The notes under the pieces: generated by a model
Told to the model about the DNA's origin: nothing
Seen by the model: the letters and a program-made list of their open reading frames with translations, nothing else
The model's database searches: none
NCBI GenBank assembly: GCA_031270665.1
Contig: JAISXD010000050.1
Location: forward strand, 1-64,000
Direction of reading: 5' to 3'
DNA: 64,000 bases
Origin: Tannerellaceae bacterium
GTDB taxonomy: Bacteria; Bacteroidota; Bacteroidia; Bacteroidales; Tannerellaceae
Position numbers and translations under genes: made by a program
Part shown: in pieces, positions 14,872-60,935 of the stretch
Position numbering within the stretch: the stretch's first letter is position 1
How the letters are laid out: each line of letters starts with the position of its first letter

Positions 14872-14959
14872 TTGCCGACAATTATCAGTAAAATTATCGA
14901 TAATTGTCGTTTATTCTGCCGACAATTGTCAACAGGCTTGCCGATAATTATCGGCAAGC
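14872..14959. repeat. Four-unit palindromic array, exact 22-bp pitch, cores GAYAATTRTC
   Basis: Cores at 14877-14886, 14899-14908, 14921-14930, 14943-14952; last unit is a 24-bp perfect palindrome at 14936-14959. Confidence 0.9.
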
Positions 14960-46621: not shown

Positions 46622-46719
46622 TATGCAAGGCCCAAATTTCCGTGCCGGGCGTTGCACACATGTATGCAAGTCTCAAATTTTCGTTCTGAGTGTTGCACAC
46701 ATGTATGTAATGCTCAAAC
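46622..46719. repeat. 41-bp direct repeat (about 2.4 copies) built from alternating palindromes
   Basis: Units 46622-46662 and 46663-46703 plus partial third copy; junction near-palindrome TTGCACACATGTATGCAA. Confidence 0.85.
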
Positions 46720-52689: not shown

Positions 52690-55416
52690 TTATTCCCCTT
52701 TTAAAAGGATCGTCGTTTTTAAACGTATGTCTGCCGAAGAACTGCCTATCATAAGCTCAAACTCTCCAGGTTCGGTTACCCGTTTCATTTCCCTGTTTAT
52801 AAGGGAAAAATGTTCGGGTTGCAACATGATTTCTACGCTCTTCTGTTCGCCCGGTTCCAGGTATAGACGGAAGAAACCTTTCAGTTCCATAACGGGGGTT
52901 GTCACACTGCTAACCTTGTCGCGCACATACAGTTGTACAATTTCCGTTCCTCCTCTGTCGCCGCTGTTGCGTACGTTTAGCGATACGGTTACAGGCGTAT
53001 GTATGTCTGCATTACCCGGAGTGACGGAGAGGTCTGAATAGTCAAACTGTGTATAGCTTAAACCGTGTCCAAATGCATACAGGGGATTCGGGCTTCCATC
53101 GATAGAAGCTCGTGATGCCGATGGTTTACGTGAATAATAAACCGGCAGTTGCCCCATCGATTTGGGAAAACTCATAGTCAGTTTCCCGGAAGGATTATAA
53201 TCTCCAAACAAAACATCCAGGATGGCGTCTCCTCCTGCTTCACCCGGGAACCATGCTTCTACAATAGCTTGTGAAGCTTCGTCAACTTCGTTCAGTATCA
53301 AAGGCCGTCCATTCAGCAGGATTGTCGTAACCGGCTTACCGGAAGCGGCCGCGGCTTTTATCATATCAATATCTAACGCATGCAGATGCAAATCCTGGCG
53401 GTCTTTGGCTTCGCCTACTTCATCGGCGCTTTCTCCTGCAACCACCCATACCAGGTCTGCTTTTGCCGCCGCTTCGGTAATACGGCGGTTCACTTCTTCG
53501 TTTGAACGGCCGCCTGTATACCTCCATTTGATACGTTGTCCCGCAAAATCATTCACTTTACCGTATTCGGAGATAACAGGGATTTCGCGCCCTTTTTCAA
53601 GATACACCTCCGCTGTGGCCGTTACTTCCGTACATTCGTCGCTCCAATTGTCTATTACTAGTTTACCGTCTATATAAAGTCGTCCGTAGTTGTTGGCTAT
53701 CAGGCTGATTTCATAAAAGCCGCTCGTGGTAACATGAATCGTACCGCTGAACCTGGCGGAAAACGGTTCGATATTAACTCCCGGCGCAGGGCTAAGGTTA
53801 TGCCAGTAATGCGACAAGCCCTGTTCTACGGTGGCGTATATCGCTTTACCCGAACAATCCGGGCTGTTGAAATATTCCACATCCAGCCCTTCGCCGTTGC
53901 CTTTCGCCCGTTTAAAAGCAGAAGACGGGATATCTGTAAAGTTGGAAGATATGTCGCCGTTCACCCAGTCGATTATCACGTTTTTCCCAAACCGTTTATG
54001 CAAGGCCTCGATGATTGTCGTCCCGCGCGCTCCCCGTGGCGAATAACCGCCCAGTAAAGAAACGCCGGCAAGGCGGCCTACTACTGCTATACGTTTGGCG
54101 TCTTTTCGGGCCGGCAGGGTTTGATGGTCGTTCTTGAGCAATACAATGGAAGAACGCGCGGCTTCATAAGCCAGTTTCTGATGTTCCGCCGTATGTAAAG
54201 TTTTGGCTACAAGTGTAGTATCGGTATACGGATTGTCAAACAATCCCAGTTCAAATTTCATACGTAAAATTTCACCTGTCACGCTGTCGAGCACAGACAG
54301 GGGTATCTTCCCGTTTTTTACGCCGTTGATAATTCCCGATGCGTATTTTTCATGCGTAAAATCGTAAAATTGCATATTTACGCCTGCGTTAACGGAAGAG
54401 GCAATCGCGTCTTCTTCCGTTGCCGCCGTATTATGTTTGTTATATTGTAGCGCTATGGCGCCCAGGTCTGAGATTACAAAACCCTGAAATCCCCATTCCT
54501 TGCGTAATACGTCGCCAAGCAACCATTTGTTTCCAGCTACAGGGATGCCGTCTATCTCATGGTATGCCGCCATAACCCCGTGGGCGTTGGCTTCTCTGAC
54601 GGCTTTTTCGAAAACGTATAAATGTGTTGAGCGCATTTCCCGCTCCCCGATATAAACGGGGCTAAGGTTACTTCCGTTTTCAGGAATGCCGTGTACACCG
54701 AAATGTTTAGGTTCGGCAATTACTGTGCCGGGGTCTTTAAGGGAATGTCCTTGCATGCCTTTGATCATATTTACTCCCATGCGGGACGAAAGGTATGTAT
54801 CTTCTCCAAACGTTTCTTCCACCCTTCCCCAACGCGGTTCGCGCGCCAGATCAAGATTAGGGCCGAGAATAAGATGTATGCCGTGTGCACGCGCTTCCGC
54901 GGCAATCACCTGCCCTATTTTACGGATAAGCAGGGTATCCCATGTACATGAATTGCCCAGCGGAATGGGGAATGTAGTTGCGCCTGCACCCTGGTAACCA
55001 TGTAGCCCTTCCTCAATCATAATGGGCGGAATGCCAAGGCGCGATCGCTCTTTTACATAGCGCTGAATGTCGTTGCACACAGCGGACGAGACAGGATATA
55101 GGTCATGGATAGCTCCGAAGGTATTGGTTTTCATCCGCCTCTCCATTTTATCCATCGCTAATTCGCCGGCCGATTCAAGGATCGACCCGGCATCGAGCAT
55201 ATCAAGTTGTGCGGCTTTTTCTTCGAGCGTCATCCGTTTCAGCAAATCGCTGACCCGTTGCTCTACCTGTGCGGACCCTGTGAACAGGCAACCGCTGCAA
55301 ATCAGTATTGTAAAAATAGTTCTTTTCATTCTATCCATGTTTCCCATTTCTTTTTTAACAGATGATAAAAATAAATACTGTCTTAAAACTTTGTTTTTTT
55401 CAATTTTTTCAGTCAC
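52690..55416 (-). CDS. GH3 family beta-glycosidase with inserted PA14 and C-terminal Fn3-like domain
   Basis: GH3 region LILGPNLDLAREPRWGRVEETFGED and FVISDLGAI; PA14-like insert; start may be nearer 55329. Confidence 0.9.
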   Translation of the reverse strand: MTEKIEKNKVLRQYLFLSSVKKEMGNMDRMKRTIFTILICSGCLFTGSAQVEQRVSDLLKRMTLEEKAAQLDMLDAGSILESAGELAMDKMERRMKTNTFGAIHDLYPVSSAVCNDIQRYVKERSRLGIPPIMIEEGLHGYQGAGATTFPIPLGNSCTWDTLLIRKIGQVIAAEARAHGIHLILGPNLDLAREPRWGRVEETFGEDTYLSSRMGVNMIKGMQGHSLKDPGTVIAEPKHFGVHGIPENGSNLSPVYIGEREMRSTHLYVFEKAVREANAHGVMAAYHEIDGIPVAGNKWLLGDVLRKEWGFQGFVISDLGAIALQYNKHNTAATEEDAIASSVNAGVNMQFYDFTHEKYASGIINGVKNGKIPLSVLDSVTGEILRMKFELGLFDNPYTDTTLVAKTLHTAEHQKLAYEAARSSIVLLKNDHQTLPARKDAKRIAVVGRLAGVSLLGGYSPRGARGTTIIEALHKRFGKNVIIDWVNGDISSNFTDIPSSAFKRAKGNGEGLDVEYFNSPDCSGKAIYATVEQGLSHYWHNLSPAPGVNIEPFSARFSGTIHVTTSGFYEISLIANNYGRLYIDGKLVIDNWSDECTEVTATAEVYLEKGREIPVISEYGKVNDFAGQRIKWRYTGGRSNEEVNRRITEAAAKADLVWVVAGESADEVGEAKDRQDLHLHALDIDMIKAAAASGKPVTTILLNGRPLILNEVDEASQAIVEAWFPGEAGGDAILDVLFGDYNPSGKLTMSFPKSMGQLPVYYSRKPSASRASIDGSPNPLYAFGHGLSYTQFDYSDLSVTPGNADIHTPVTVSLNVRNSGDRGGTEIVQLYVRDKVSSVTTPVMELKGFFRLYLEPGEQKSVEIMLQPEHFSLINREMKRVTEPGEFELMIGSSSADIRLKTTILLKGE

Positions 55417-55452
55417 ATTTATTGCAACTATATTATATTCAGGATAATAAGC

Positions 55453-55526
55453 GTGACTGAGCGTGTGACGGAATGGTGACGGAAGATGAACTACTACGTA
55501 TCACCTTCCGTCACACGCTCAGTCAC
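55453..55526. repeat. Perfect 21-bp inverted repeat GTGACTGAGCGTGTGACGGAA / TTCCGTCACACGCTCAGTCAC
   Basis: Arms 55453-55473 and 55506-55526; no T-run. Confidence 0.95.
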
Positions 55527-55638
55527 ACCTATCATACTGAATACAAATGTTTTATGAAGGATTTGACTGAAAAACGGAAAAAATAAAGTTTTTGTAGAGA
55601 GTTGTTCCCTACTTTTCAATCTACTCCCTCAAAAAAAA

Positions 55639-55758
55639 GATTGCGATGTCTTCACCAAACCATTGTGATGTCTTCAGTAAACCATTATAATGTTTTTACA
55701 AAAGCATCATAATGGTTTGGTAAAGACATTATAATGGTTTACTTAACACATTATAATG
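55639..55758. repeat. Six-unit array at exact 22-bp pitch, consensus core CATTATAATG
   Basis: Cores start at 55639, 55661, 55683, 55705, 55727, 55749; 55668-55707 and 55712-55751 form a 35/40 inverted repeat. Confidence 0.93.
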
Positions 55759-55787
55759 TCTTTTTTTCTTTGCCCGAAAGTCAATTA

Positions 55788-57572
55788 TTACCACGTGGGG
55801 CCGTCATGCCAGTCGTTTTTTGCCCAGAACAACACTTCCGAATAGTTATCGTGCGGAGCGGCTTCCGCCTGGTAGTTCTCATTATAATTGCGCTCGCTAT
55901 CCACATACCGCAAACGGTTCAAGGGATGCGGAGCAAGAGCTGTGGAGCTATTGTCTTGGTTATAAAACATCCAGGGATAGCCTGTACGACGCAGGTCTGA
56001 CCACTGTTCGCCACAGTTGAGATACCCGTAAGCCAGCCATTTCTGCTCTAATATCGCTTCGAGTTTACCTCCTCTTTCGTACGTTGAACCGTCAATCCTG
56101 GTTTCCCAGCGCGCATCGCCGAAAGCGCTAATCCACGTATCATTATACACACTCTCATCAGGATTGATATTGGTACGCTGCTGAATGCCGTCCCGGGGAT
56201 TGGAGTCGCTATTGTCCGCTTCCGTGCGTGAACGCGTGTTGTGATACTTGAACAGGAGTTTGACAGACTGCCTGATACCTTCCTTAAAAGCGGCCTTGGC
56301 ATCGCCGTTCACCCAGCCGCGCTGTATGGCTTCAGCCTTGATGAAGTGCATTTCCGCTGCTGAAATAGCCAGATGATCCCAGTTCTGGTTACCGTAGAAA
56401 AAGCCGAAACGGCGAACTAATGACAAGTACCCTCCCCGGTCGTTTACCTCTGTGTAATGTTCTTGGAACGAATCATAGGACTCGCCATAGTAAGTGCCCC
56501 GGTAAACCGAAGCTATGGCCATGCCGGCAGACAAAGGATCTCCTATCGCTTCTTCTTCGGCTTTTTCAACAGGCGTCTCGCCGTTCTTCGTTGCCAGGCA
56601 GTACATCAGAGGCAGACGCGGATCGTCCTGACCCGGCACCCATACGCCACCGTTGCCGGCCTGCTGCATACGTTTGATGATTTCGCCGGCAGCGAATCGC
56701 TCTCTTGGCCAGTCGAAGCCTGAACCGCCTTCAATATTCAACGGGCCGGATGTCTGGCGGCTGATGTCGATATTCTGGTCGTTGCTTTCAACGATAGGAT
56801 ATGCCGAAGGATTACCCAGAATTTCTTTAATTATCCGCTGGCCTTCAGACGCCAACGGCCCGTTTGTGGAAATACGTAAAGCTGCGCGTAAACGGAGAGA
56901 ATTGGCATACCTTTGCCAGGCAACTAAATCGCCGCCGTTGATAAAATCCTGTCCGGCAAATGAGGCAGGTTTAGGTATTGTGGCAAATTTGGCCGCAATC
57001 TCTCCTAACCGGTTCAGAATGTTTGTCCACAAGGCCTGGTCGTCGTCAAAGTGAGGGCTTGCATAAGAAATATCGCCCTGAAGGGCTACCTGTCCGATTC
57101 CTTCAAACGGGATAGGGCCATACTCGCTCAACAGGAAGATCATCACTCCGTAAAGATGGGTTTCGGCGGCTATCAGGTACCCTTCGTTTGCCGCTTGTTC
57201 ATTTTCGGGAAGTTCTTCATATATCTGTTGCATTTTGCGGAAGTTGGTAACCATTTTCGGATATTCGTTATATGGCTGGCCGTAGTCTATATAATTAAGA
57301 TTCCCTAAATAATAGGAACTGCTTCTCAGTGAAACGCCAAGGGTATTTGTCTGTAACCCCAAACACAGAGGGTCGTAACCGAAATACCTTCCATACGTAG
57401 AGCAAACCCAGTCATTGGCATAAAGCAAGGTGCCGGGCATCAGTTTATCAAGCGTAGCCGACGCAGCTTTGCCCGGGTCGGCATACTTTTCGTCGTAAGA
57501 CGCTTCTTCACAACTGCTGAATGTGAATAATACACACGCTGCCAGCAACAATATTGAAATTATTTTTTTCAT
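55788..57572 (-). CDS. SusD-like (SusD_2/RagB-type) starch-binding outer membrane lipoprotein
   Basis: Lipobox TFSSCEE; TPR-like SusD fold; ends ...WYGYLNCGEQWSDLRRTGYPWMF type region; follows susC-like gene. Confidence 0.9.
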   Translation of the reverse strand: MKKIISILLLAACVLFTFSSCEEASYDEKYADPGKAASATLDKLMPGTLLYANDWVCSTYGRYFGYDPLCLGLQTNTLGVSLRSSSYYLGNLNYIDYGQPYNEYPKMVTNFRKMQQIYEELPENEQAANEGYLIAAETHLYGVMIFLLSEYGPIPFEGIGQVALQGDISYASPHFDDDQALWTNILNRLGEIAAKFATIPKPASFAGQDFINGGDLVAWQRYANSLRLRAALRISTNGPLASEGQRIIKEILGNPSAYPIVESNDQNIDISRQTSGPLNIEGGSGFDWPRERFAAGEIIKRMQQAGNGGVWVPGQDDPRLPLMYCLATKNGETPVEKAEEEAIGDPLSAGMAIASVYRGTYYGESYDSFQEHYTEVNDRGGYLSLVRRFGFFYGNQNWDHLAISAAEMHFIKAEAIQRGWVNGDAKAAFKEGIRQSVKLLFKYHNTRSRTEADNSDSNPRDGIQQRTNINPDESVYNDTWISAFGDARWETRIDGSTYERGGKLEAILEQKWLAYGYLNCGEQWSDLRRTGYPWMFYNQDNSSTALAPHPLNRLRYVDSERNYNENYQAEAAPHDNYSEVLFWAKNDWHDGPTW

Positions 57573-57608
57573 GTTTTTTTCAATTTAAAATAGCTGAATT
57601 AATATTAG

Positions 57609-60600
57609 TTAGAATGACGCGCGCAAAGAAACGCCGACCGTACGGGTAGGAGCTGCCGATCCTCCGATGGTCAACTGATCCTTCCAGTTAGTACCGTTGC
57701 TGGTTTCCGGGTCATAATTAGGTATTGTCTTGTAAAAGTAGCACAGGTTTCTTCCGAAAACCGACAACGTGAGATTCTTCAATGCTGCATTTTTGATCAA
57801 GTCTTTTTTGAACGTGTACGACAAAGAAAGTTCGCGCAACTTCCACCAGGTGTTTTCGGAAGTGGAAAGCATTCTGTTAGGGTTTCCACCACCACCCCAG
57901 TCGTATGTCTCTTGGATATACTTTTCATACGGAATTGTCTTCTTGTTTTCTGTCCATCCGCCTTTTCCGTCGGAAACCACACCGTCCAGGATAATACCGG
58001 TTTGCTTTTTCAATCCATTGTCATACGTATGTTCATAAAATCCTTCGCCTTCACGATTTTCCGTCTCGGGGTTCACGCCGGCAGTCATCGTGTAGTGATA
58101 TACTTCGTTGAAAATATAGCCGCCGATGCGGAAGTCGGTCATAACGTCGAATGTGAAGTTTTTGTACGACAGGCTTGTTCCGATACCTCCGGTTGCATCA
58201 GGCATAGCGCTTCCTATGACTTCCAGTGTCTGGGTCATCATATAATTACCATCATCATTAACTATTTTGCGTCCTTTGTACGGGCCGTCTTCTACAACCT
58301 GGTTAATATAGGTTACATAGTCGCCCATGGGACGCCCTACCGTTGAATAGTTTTTTCCGATACCGCCGGCGAAATATCCCGTTTCGATGAAATTAATGCC
58401 CTCTACCAGCTTGAGGATTTTATTGCGGTTAAACCCGATGTTACCGCGTACTTCCCATGTAAGGTTTCTGTTATCAATAATGGAGCCGTACAAAGAAAGT
58501 TCAACGCCTTTATTTTCCATCGTACCCGAATTTACCCACATCGAATTGCTGCCGCTACTGGTGGCAAGGCTTGCTTTGAGTAACATATCGGTGATTCTGC
58601 GGTTGTAATACGAAACTTCGAATCCGAGGCGGTTGTTGAGGAACTTACTTTCCAAACCGATTTCAAACTCTTTGGTTGTTTCGGGTTTCAATTTTTCATT
58701 ACCCAAATCGGCAGGTACCTGGTTGTAACTCCAACCGGGAGCGGAACCTACCGTATAAGCCATATTTGCGGCGTATGCTTCGGGTGCGTTACCTACAATA
58801 CCGTAGGCGAGGCGCAGTTTGCCGAAGTCATACCACGAAGGCATGCTGAATGCATCCGTAAACAGGAAGCTGGCGCTTGCCGACGGATAGAAATAATTGC
58901 GGGTATCTTTAGGCAAGGTAGATGATTTTTCCTGGCGGCCGGTAATATCGAGATAAAGGTAATCGCCGTAGGAAACGCCGAGGGTACCTACCCAAGCGGT
59001 CTTCAGTAACTCCATTTTTTTCTCGGTCTGATCATTGATGTCCAACGGACTATATGAATTATTTATCATATACAAACCTTCGATGGAGAGACCCCTGTTC
59101 GTACCGAGATACAGTGAATTCATTGTTTCGGCTCTGCCTTGCCAGCCTGCGCTTGCTGTCACCCCAAACTTGTCGTTCAGTTTTTTGTCGAGCATCAACA
59201 TAATGTCGCCGTAGTTCACCTGGTAGTACTTGGTCATGGTGTTATATCCGCCCGAACCTTCACTCGTACTTGCGGCGGCAGGAAATTCAGGATAATTCAC
59301 GCCTATAATCTTGGATGTGGTATAGTCTGTCGCTATACGGCCTTTTGCCGTCAGCCACGGCGTAATTTTCCAAGTGGGCGACGCGCTTGCCAGCAAACGT
59401 TGCTCCACTTCGTCGCTTGTTTTGTCGTAGATATCCCACAAGGTTTGCCGGACGCCATGCACAAACTCGTTGGAGTTGTATTTGAACTTTTCGTCAGGCG
59501 TAGGACCGGCGCCGCGGTCGTCGTTTTTATAGCCCAAGCTTGTCTTGTACATCTTCTTCATCAACGGTATATCGAGGAACGAAGCGAACATATTAGACCA
59601 GGATTGATAAGTGCCGATTGAGGCTTGCGCGCGGTTTACGAAATGCTGCGTAATATAATTGCCGGTATAATCCACAGACAGCTTATCATTGAACTTCAGA
59701 TTACCCACAACGTTGAAGTTGTGTTTCTGGTAATCGCTCGTCAGGGCATTCGGCACTTCTTTCAAAAAAGTGTATGAGAAGCGGGTCGTGGAATTTTCGC
59801 TACCCTGATTGATGGCAATATTGTATGTCTGGTTTGTACCGGTACGAAACAGTTCTTTCCACGGTTGCGTTGTGATGGCGGAATACGGACGTGTGGTTCC
59901 GTCGATATACAATACATCGCGGCCATCGTAAGGAGCGCCCCACTGGAAATTCGTATAGTTGGGGAAAAGTTTGCCTGTTGCGGCATCCACTTTCATCCCA
60001 TTGTTGGCGATTTGCTCTGCCGTCCATGTTTCGTAACCTCCGCCGGGCCCGTATTTCGTCTGGATATCAGGCACTTCCGCTACCATGTTGGCCTGGAGAG
60101 ACGCATTGACGTCAACCGTTACTCCGGAACCGCTGGCCTTCTTGCTGGTGATAACGATAGCGCCGTTGGCAGCTTCCGATCCGTAAAGAGCGGTAGCGGC
60201 AGCGCCTTTCAAAATGGTCAACTGGTCGATGTCTTCGGGATTGATATCTACCAAACCGTTTGAACGGATACGGTCGCCCGAGCCAAGCGAGGCAAAGTCT
60301 CGGGTGTTATTGTCGCCAATCTTACTTGCATTACCGTTACGTATAGGCACGCCGTTAAGGATTACAAGTGGCTGCGTGTTTCCATTGATTGATGACAATC
60401 CGCGTAAATTAATAGATACGCCGCCGGCAGCTCCCCCCTGTGTGCTTTGAATGTTAACGCCGGAAGCTTTACCGTACAAGGCCGTGGCTAAATTCGCCGT
60501 ACCGCTTTTTAGAAGATCGCCTGAGCTGATAACGGTTGCGGCATAACCCAGTTTTTTAGCGTCTTTCGTTATACCCAACGCCGTTACAACCACTTCGCCT

Positions 60601-60935
60601 AATTCTTCCGCGTCGTCTACCATTGTAATATCAAATCTTGTTTGATTTCCAACGGTAACCGTTTGCGCTTTAAAACCGACATAAGAAAACTTTAATGTTG
60701 CCTGAGGCCTGACATTGATGCTGAAGGCTCCGTTGGCGTCTGTTATCGTCCCGTTGGACGTCCCTGTTTCCAACACTGCAACCCCAACGAGGGGTTCGCC
60801 TCCCGGATCGACAACCTTACCGGTCACTTTTATTCCGCCTTGCGCATAGGCATACGCAAAACCTGAAAAGAGCATACATCCGATCACCAATAACCGGAGT
60901 AAAGCAGGAAATAATAACTTTTTTTGGTTTTTCAT
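57609..60935 (-). CDS. SusC/RagA family TonB-linked outer membrane protein
   Basis: KVTGKVVDPGGEPLVGVAVLETGTSNGTITDANGAFSI; plug KDAKKLGYAATVISSGDLLKSG; 1108 aa. Confidence 0.95.
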   Translation of the reverse strand: MKNQKKLLFPALLRLLVIGCMLFSGFAYAYAQGGIKVTGKVVDPGGEPLVGVAVLETGTSNGTITDANGAFSINVRPQATLKFSYVGFKAQTVTVGNQTRFDITMVDDAEELGEVVVTALGITKDAKKLGYAATVISSGDLLKSGTANLATALYGKASGVNIQSTQGGAAGGVSINLRGLSSINGNTQPLVILNGVPIRNGNASKIGDNNTRDFASLGSGDRIRSNGLVDINPEDIDQLTILKGAAATALYGSEAANGAIVITSKKASGSGVTVDVNASLQANMVAEVPDIQTKYGPGGGYETWTAEQIANNGMKVDAATGKLFPNYTNFQWGAPYDGRDVLYIDGTTRPYSAITTQPWKELFRTGTNQTYNIAINQGSENSTTRFSYTFLKEVPNALTSDYQKHNFNVVGNLKFNDKLSVDYTGNYITQHFVNRAQASIGTYQSWSNMFASFLDIPLMKKMYKTSLGYKNDDRGAGPTPDEKFKYNSNEFVHGVRQTLWDIYDKTSDEVEQRLLASASPTWKITPWLTAKGRIATDYTTSKIIGVNYPEFPAAASTSEGSGGYNTMTKYYQVNYGDIMLMLDKKLNDKFGVTASAGWQGRAETMNSLYLGTNRGLSIEGLYMINNSYSPLDINDQTEKKMELLKTAWVGTLGVSYGDYLYLDITGRQEKSSTLPKDTRNYFYPSASASFLFTDAFSMPSWYDFGKLRLAYGIVGNAPEAYAANMAYTVGSAPGWSYNQVPADLGNEKLKPETTKEFEIGLESKFLNNRLGFEVSYYNRRITDMLLKASLATSSGSNSMWVNSGTMENKGVELSLYGSIIDNRNLTWEVRGNIGFNRNKILKLVEGINFIETGYFAGGIGKNYSTVGRPMGDYVTYINQVVEDGPYKGRKIVNDDGNYMMTQTLEVIGSAMPDATGGIGTSLSYKNFTFDVMTDFRIGGYIFNEVYHYTMTAGVNPETENREGEGFYEHTYDNGLKKQTGIILDGVVSDGKGGWTENKKTIPYEKYIQETYDWGGGGNPNRMLSTSENTWWKLRELSLSYTFKKDLIKNAALKNLTLSVFGRNLCYFYKTIPNYDPETSNGTNWKDQLTIGGSAAPTRTVGVSLRASF

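Follow-up and report, generated by a model that had tools for sequence, protein, structure and literature searches.

A dispersed intergenic palindromic element with a 22-bp pitch in Tannerellaceae

Introduction

Several kinds of repeated or hairpin-forming bacterial DNA invite comparison with arrays of tandem palindromes. In phased operator and iteron arrays, sites recur every two helical turns, the usual figure for the underwound DNA of bacteria in vivo being ~11 bp per turn, and iterons are direct repeats located at one origin. Integron attC sites combine a conserved structure with a free sequence and form a hairpin at the DNA level; they are not known to contain a 22-bp repetition, and their cassettes are clustered. 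REPINs are whole-element inverted repeats of ~100 bp, also defined by a cognate RAYT (Y1) gene flanked by the same repeats. More generally, REP, BIME and REPIN elements, including the GTAG or CGTC REP families, are short extragenic palindromes present in tens to hundreds of copies, in lineage-specific families and clustered units (PMC3733652, PMC3116915), and what defines a REP is a palindrome carrying at its foot one of the tags GTAG or CGTC (PMC3733652). Within Bacteroidales, the BrickBuilt elements of P. gingivalis consist of a 23-nt minisatellite within a MITE; they are intergenic, occupy ~20 sites per genome, vary in unit number at conserved sites, give long predicted stem-loops and have a leader and a tail with terminal inverted repeats (PMC4596501). 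In the same species, 22-nt direct repeats are mentioned in strain W83 and 41-nt tandem repeats are known in the 464/PgRS elements (PMC4596501).

We have analyzed a 64,000-nucleotide stretch of DNA (hereafter the window) from the draft genome of a Tannerellaceae bacterium (GCA_031270665.1, contig JAISXD010000050.1, positions 1 to 64,000; draft of 1.97 Mb, 58% complete), in which an array of palindromes separates a susD gene from a GH3 gene. We show that this array represents a palindromic DNA element of ~100-114 bp, dispersed between the genes of one Tannerellaceae genus which, to judge by isolate names, inhabits termite and cockroach guts. Other elements, of unrelated sequences, have the same architecture, namely three to seven dyad-symmetric units at an exact 22-bp pitch, the whole being an inverted repeat.

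Results

The array between susD and the GH3 gene

The six 10-bp palindromic cores (Table 1) succeed one another by steps of 22 bp, as the original prediction had it, and such a repetition is unexpected by chance, two perfect CATTATAATG cores at 22-bp spacing having an expected count of 0.00 in dinucleotide shuffles of the window. Compared with the canonical element of five cores, the copy present here has one more core and linker, located toward GH3. Over 47 nt, complementarity between its two arms (55661-55707 and 55712-55758) reaches 85%, which confirms the inverted repeat centered on the fourth core. The 201-nt region folds 8.9 SD better than shuffled sequences on the + strand and 6.9 SD better on the - strand (0/200 shuffles each). 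Regarding the 84-nt hairpin proposed for the array, the inverted repeat stands, with the refinement that the MFE structure of the + strand is made of two adjacent hairpins instead of a single one.

Table 1. Features of the window, in forward-strand positions
Feature	Position	Strand	Remark
Six-core array, 22-bp pitch	55639..55758		Cores in order GATTGCGATG, CATTGTGATG, CATTATAATG, CATCATAATG, CATTATAATG, CATTATAATG
Canonical five-core part, inverted repeat centered on core four (55705-55714)	55661..55758		Fits the consensus drawn from 58 distinct five-core copies
Additional core and linker, GH3 side	55639..55660		Also in the orthologous G016 copy (6 cores); most other copies have 5
A8 tract, left element end	55631..55638		A7-8 there in most copies
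T7 tract, right element end	55761..55767		T7-8 in most copies
Second dispersed inverted repeat TTTTTTCAGTCAC...GTGACTGAAAAA, adjoining the array	55404..55574		Other copies surround a 22-bp array
GH3 gene, downstream of the array	52690..55416	-	Pfam
SusD-like gene, upstream of the array	55788..57572	-	Pfam
SusC gene	57609-60935	-	Pfam
Second 22-bp-pitch array, unrelated sequence (GCCGACAATTATC / GATAATTGTCGGC type)	14872..14957		Blind scan z = 5.8, dyad p = 0.003

According to Pfam, the neighboring genes code for GH95, GH106, GH3, SusD, SusC and GH95, all on the minus strand, and this gene order agrees with an array located between susD and GH3, its end being 30 bp past the susD stop. Elsewhere in the window, a 41-bp tandem unit (2.4 copies, 46622-46718) is found downstream of a GH95 gene. 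As for the inverted repeat adjoining the array, related TTTTTTCAGTCAC...GTGACTGAAAAA copies form with the 22-bp array they enclose a ~450-bp inverted-repeat composite present at many sites; in the sister species G016, the apex of the window element is longer by 57 bases.

A dispersed intergenic family

A two-core pattern with at most 2 mismatches gave 35 matches per strand in the own draft genome against 0 for the reversed-pattern control, and BLAST with the array pointed to ~33 places. The search for palindromes spaced 21-23 bp, advised at the outset, was thus fruitful, both in this genome, where these ~33 places have a 22-bp pitch, and in its relatives. Three species were analyzed and contained 82 arrays, 0/82 of which lie inside ORFs of at least 130 aa, intergenic status being judged here by ORF length in genomes that are drafts and for many of them MAGs. 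In the usual copy, an A7-8 tract is followed by five cores of 10 bp with a pitch of 22 bp and then by a T7-8 tract; the copy is symmetric about core three and has linkers of a left type (TCTTCAGTAAAC) and a right type (GTTTACTGAAGA). When steps of 21-23 bp were permitted, only two steps among the array copies were not of 22 bp, each of them involving a weak core at an end, and 74/74 window-family scan windows of the three species peak at period 22.

A subgroup of four-core arrays sits within a longer dispersed repeat. Near-identical subfamilies (L047, L048, L060 and L061; L176, L182, L186, L187 and L192; in G000 and G016) share several hundred flank bases, which shows recent duplication of the array together with its flank.

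The distribution of the family is narrow. The two-core pattern occurs in 7 of 19 genus members (77, 61, 54, 35, 6, 5 and 4 matches), the remaining members giving 0, and a scan of GTDB genomes returned matches only in Tannerellaceae MAGs named Cc175, Roe453 and Gsp477, isolate names that we read as indicating a termite- or cockroach-gut origin of the carriers. The viral contigs, plasmids and phages searched contained 0 copies of the window family. An order-wide survey by the A/T-tract linker pattern was abandoned: it was noisy in AT-rich genomes, the reversed control being often equally high, and few genomes stood out; blind period scans were therefore relied on instead.

Orthologous sites, unit number and the susCD tract

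The sister species G016 has a six-core array at the same place, behind a SusD 76% identical, and further arrays are common to sister species, some having the same flanking sequence and others lying at orthologous sites that have diverged. At one orthologous site, 5 cores in G000 face 3 in G016, the difference being exactly 44 bp (two units) with both ends kept. Array number and position hence appear to change slowly, and unit number by whole steps. The comparison of unit number, originally meant for strains and run here between sister species, gives through this whole-unit difference support to the growth by unit duplication that had been considered possible. Among the G000, G016 and G012 stretches, a clean empty site was sought and none was found.

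The DNA of the window and of G016 is ~99% identical from within GH3 up to the array, 69-85% identical on the susD side (69-88% for susD and most of susC), and ~95% identical at the 5' part of susC. The divergent tract extends from the array to ~60500 in susC, and the step in identity consequently falls at the array. The susCD tract (55700-60500) has been swapped or is diverging fast, with its left edge at the array; this is one case, in which the position of the step may be a coincidence.

A whole-element symmetry maintained on DNA

Covariation was assessed with 58 distinct five-core copies pooled from the three species. In the register of the whole-element hairpin, block positions show 47 double (compensatory) changes vs 31 expected (0/300 shuffles); the shuffles take no account of phylogeny, while the shifted-register controls do in part. 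Among these 58 copies, coordinated change is absent from local stem-loops or dyads at cores or linkers and from registers +22, -22 and +44, and register -44 has a weak excess of double changes (18 vs 13). The signal emerges only with the 58 copies, the 20 own-genome copies alone being flat (79.4% vs 79.2% paired). Covariation being thus a property of the whole-element register, the unit of symmetry in which changes are coordinated is the element in its entirety; hairpins with a local tetraloop (7-bp stem, 4-nt loop) were discarded because their positions do not change together.

In the 19 co-directional copies oriented along transcription, G.U pairs number 64 vs 75 A.C, and in copies at most 150 bp from the upstream stop 40 vs 57. 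The 58 classifiable copies are located in co-directional (26), divergent (22) and convergent (10) gaps, in proportion to intergenic length, and display no enrichment at gene 3' ends. A search of Rfam returned no family at gathering score and only sub-threshold miRNA/sRNA matches to AT-rich palindromes. With neither G.U excess nor gene-end bias, and with arms covarying over the whole element, the structure is kept at the DNA level and not as an RNA terminator, its symmetry being maintained by changes which are alike on both DNA strands. These findings can be explained if one arm serves as template for the other through template switching, or if selection acts on an array of sites or on a hairpin formed by DNA; they are not explained by an RNA terminator.

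These results do not support the other idea of the original prediction, in which an RNA structure would adjust the expression of susCD relative to that of the GH genes, since the same element occupies all types of gaps according to their length and G.U pairs do not exceed A.C. A locus-specific susCD/GH attenuator was rejected for the same reasons and for the dispersion of the element, and we infer that the array of the susCD-GH3 gap is a resident repeat rather than a switch proper to this locus.

Unrelated arrays with the same pitch

A sequence-only model of the element gave weaker matches in other Tannerellaceae genera, and inspection of these revealed arrays of 22-bp pitch whose cores differ from those of the window; in G007, a species of the same genus, the R1 model built on the window family had 0 matches. 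Blind scans were performed on stretches of 80-200 kb picked regardless of repeats (for one of them, G367, the presence of an array was already known), with all periods between 12 and 40 allowed in intergenic windows, over a total of ~0.7 Mb of Tannerellaceae. Period 22 was obtained in 24 of the 34 periodic intergenic windows of four other Tannerellaceae genomes with unrelated arrays, one of them being the same-genus species deprived of the window sequence. In the latter (G007), 14 of 15 matches have period 22 and represent several unrelated families, such as GTTCAACAACTGTAGAAC, GCATGCATGCGATTT, GTGAGCC...GGCTCAC and TTTAGACGTACCTCTAAA. The same period accounts for 6/11 matches in G020, 3/3 in G028 and 2/3 in G231 (another family), with unrelated cores. 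G021 gave single or double matches at periods 21, 22, 23 and 28, the sampled stretches of three genomes outside the family (G156, G051 and G094) no period-22 array, and the E. coli control stretch one period-21 match only.

Dyad symmetry was found at ~p<0.05 in 27 of 29 arrays, among which both arrays of the window, the null being a permutation of the 22 positions identical in every unit. The second window array is a single copy in its own draft genome; it resembles an array of G007 (L245:15655). In some families, 7-bp blocks alternate with their reverse complements with four variable bases in between (7+4 = 11 bp), while in the window family the core center is conserved and only the linker center is free. 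In other Bacteroidales (G239/G397, arrays L166 and L165; G370, L157; G095, L168; G385, L151), we observed an A-tract, a ~10-bp core and a T-tract at 21-22 bp pitch with different cores; the G239/G397 arrays have a constant linker, TTTGAGTAAA, and a variable core.

It seems to be the 22-bp spacing rather than the letters which is conserved. The proposal of a phased array with two helical turns per unit is strengthened by this geometry, the ~33 places of the genome and the unrelated arrays of relatives having the same pitch.

Discussion

The explanation we favor, with a confidence that stays slightly below even, is a phased binding-site element for putative proteins, which would have spread in the manner of REP/MITE repeats. 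The spacing is constant and equal to whole helical turns, the sites are dyad-symmetric, and both properties extend across unrelated families; as one length is kept across unrelated sequences, a ruler is needed, and the fixed 22-bp pitch would be that of two helical turns of ~11 bp. Each unit would be recognized by a putative DNA-binding protein acting as a dimer, and the units would all face the same side of the helix, with variable bases between the recognized blocks and with different sequence families read by different putative proteins. The arms might stay complementary because the element folds, as a hairpin or a cruciform, when its DNA is single-stranded or supercoiled, one arm being corrected against the other by template switching, and new copies would travel partly as passengers of larger repeats such as the inverted-repeat composites. 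Some features temper this model. Covariation over the whole element exceeds what plain tandem binding sites need, and protein binding may hence be less important than a hairpin intermediate; register -44 has its weak excess; a reading with free bases at each of the two dyads fits some families better than that of the window; the 22-bp ruler may not be absolute, given the matches of G021 at 21, 22 and 23; and the stretches sampled in G156, G051 and G094, outside the family, have no such arrays.

Part of these observations would be equally expected from a non-autonomous mobile hairpin, REPIN- or MITE-like, recognized as DNA by a trans-acting transposase (e.g., Y1) and spreading without host function, an explanation that we hold for possible but rather unlikely. 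It would account for dispersed copies, for their sporadic distribution among species (77, 61, 54 and 35 matches vs 0 in most genus members), for the coordinated change of the whole-element inverted repeat and for the copies moved within the larger composite; besides, Y1 transposase genes exist in three array-rich species, a few at 0.5-0.75 kb from an array. However, most arrays occupy sites that are orthologous between sister species, and no clean empty site was found; the Y1 genes close to arrays have the appearance of a common IS200-type element that possesses its own hairpins, their proximity means little at such an array density, the own draft genome (58% complete) has no Y1 match, and a transposase leaves a pitch of 22 common to unrelated families unexplained. 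This pitch also weighs on the view of a neutral replication product, in which hairpin template switching and slippage would create and homogenize tandem palindromes, the pitch reflecting a polymerase or a footprint and serving no selected function: the covariation is what correction of one arm by the other would produce, gain and loss concern whole units, and restriction to intergenic regions requires only purifying selection on genes, but mutation alone should spread unit lengths, when unrelated families of several genera peak sharply at 22. We consider this view improbable.

The least supported of the explanations, and in our opinion a very doubtful one, is an RNA hairpin acting as intrinsic terminator, attenuator or mRNA stabilizer to keep susCD above the downstream glycosidases. 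The strong fold predicted for both strands, the A- and T-tract tails reminiscent of a bidirectional terminator and the location just behind the susD stop speak in its favor; it is opposed by G.U pairs not exceeding A.C along transcription, by the 22 of 58 classifiable copies in divergent gaps and only 10 in convergent ones, as intergenic length predicts, by local stem-loops lacking coordinated change and by the empty result of Rfam at gathering score.

Returning to the phased binding-site element, we propose, more tentatively still, that it exemplifies a new class of bacterial intergenic elements defined by geometry alone. Each genome would hold many unrelated families of dyad units at exactly 22 bp, a putative machine (protein lattice or hairpin-acting enzyme) would measure two helical turns, and the sequence would be free to drift, across Tannerellaceae and parts of Bacteroidales. 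If the pitch is truly invariant, up to ~300 intergenic elements per genome, as extrapolated from the G007 sample, may be built on a 22-bp ruler in a bacterial family that is common in guts, including those of termites, while ordinary homology searches miss them because their letters differ. A real pitch would moreover offer a handle on what measures 22 bp, which could be a protein of the nucleoid or of segregation, a transposase or some effect of replication. The present locus is also a warning that hairpins by polysaccharide-locus genes may be resident repeats and not dedicated regulatory RNAs, and the change in identity seen where the window array lies suggests arrays as possible exchange boundaries for susCD cassettes.

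Comparison with known systems

Phased operator and iteron arrays resemble the 22-bp arrays by sites placed every two helical turns, but the latter have dyad symmetry and occur in many gaps throughout the chromosome. The likeness to attC sites lies in a conserved structure with free sequence and in the DNA-level hairpin; the 22-bp arrays are dispersed and do not form cassette arrays. With REPINs, the arrays have in common to be whole-element inverted repeats of ~100 bp.

The initial impression that the array is not a named repeat family agrees with the searches of Rfam and of the open-access literature, the latter yielding no description of a 22-bp dyad class. REP, BIME and REPIN elements resemble the arrays as short, extragenic palindromes in tens to hundreds of copies, with lineage-specific families and clustered units; the arrays differ by their fixed 22-bp pitch, by three to seven fused dyads and by several unrelated families of the same geometry in one genome. 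GTAG, CTAC, CGTC and GACG were sought in window 55631-55767 and are absent. A RAYT/REPIN system appears unlikely, as the Y1 genes, present in 7 of 19 genus genomes and for some of them 0.5-0.75 kb from an array, are IS200-like in appearance and their proximity is unconvincing. IS200-type Y1 transposase genes or fragments lie at this distance in L228, L229 and L231 (G012, G016 and G017). As to MITEs, for which terminal inverted repeats with a target-site duplication would be seen against an empty site, the whole element is an inverted repeat and the G000, G016 and G012 stretches gave no clean empty site.

Finally, BrickBuilt (PMC4596501) is like the arrays in being an intergenic Bacteroidales element of long predicted stem-loops whose unit number varies at conserved sites. 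Its unit, AGAYCATARTATCCTCTCRTRTG, is unrelated, seemingly not palindromic and 23 nt long instead of 22, and the 98-bp array has no leader or tail with terminal inverted repeats. An assignment to the BrickBuilt MITE was hence rejected, the array unit being a dyad-symmetric 22 bp of different sequence and most copies having no common leader or tail around them. The 22-nt repeats of P. gingivalis W83 may nonetheless be a glimpse of the same class.
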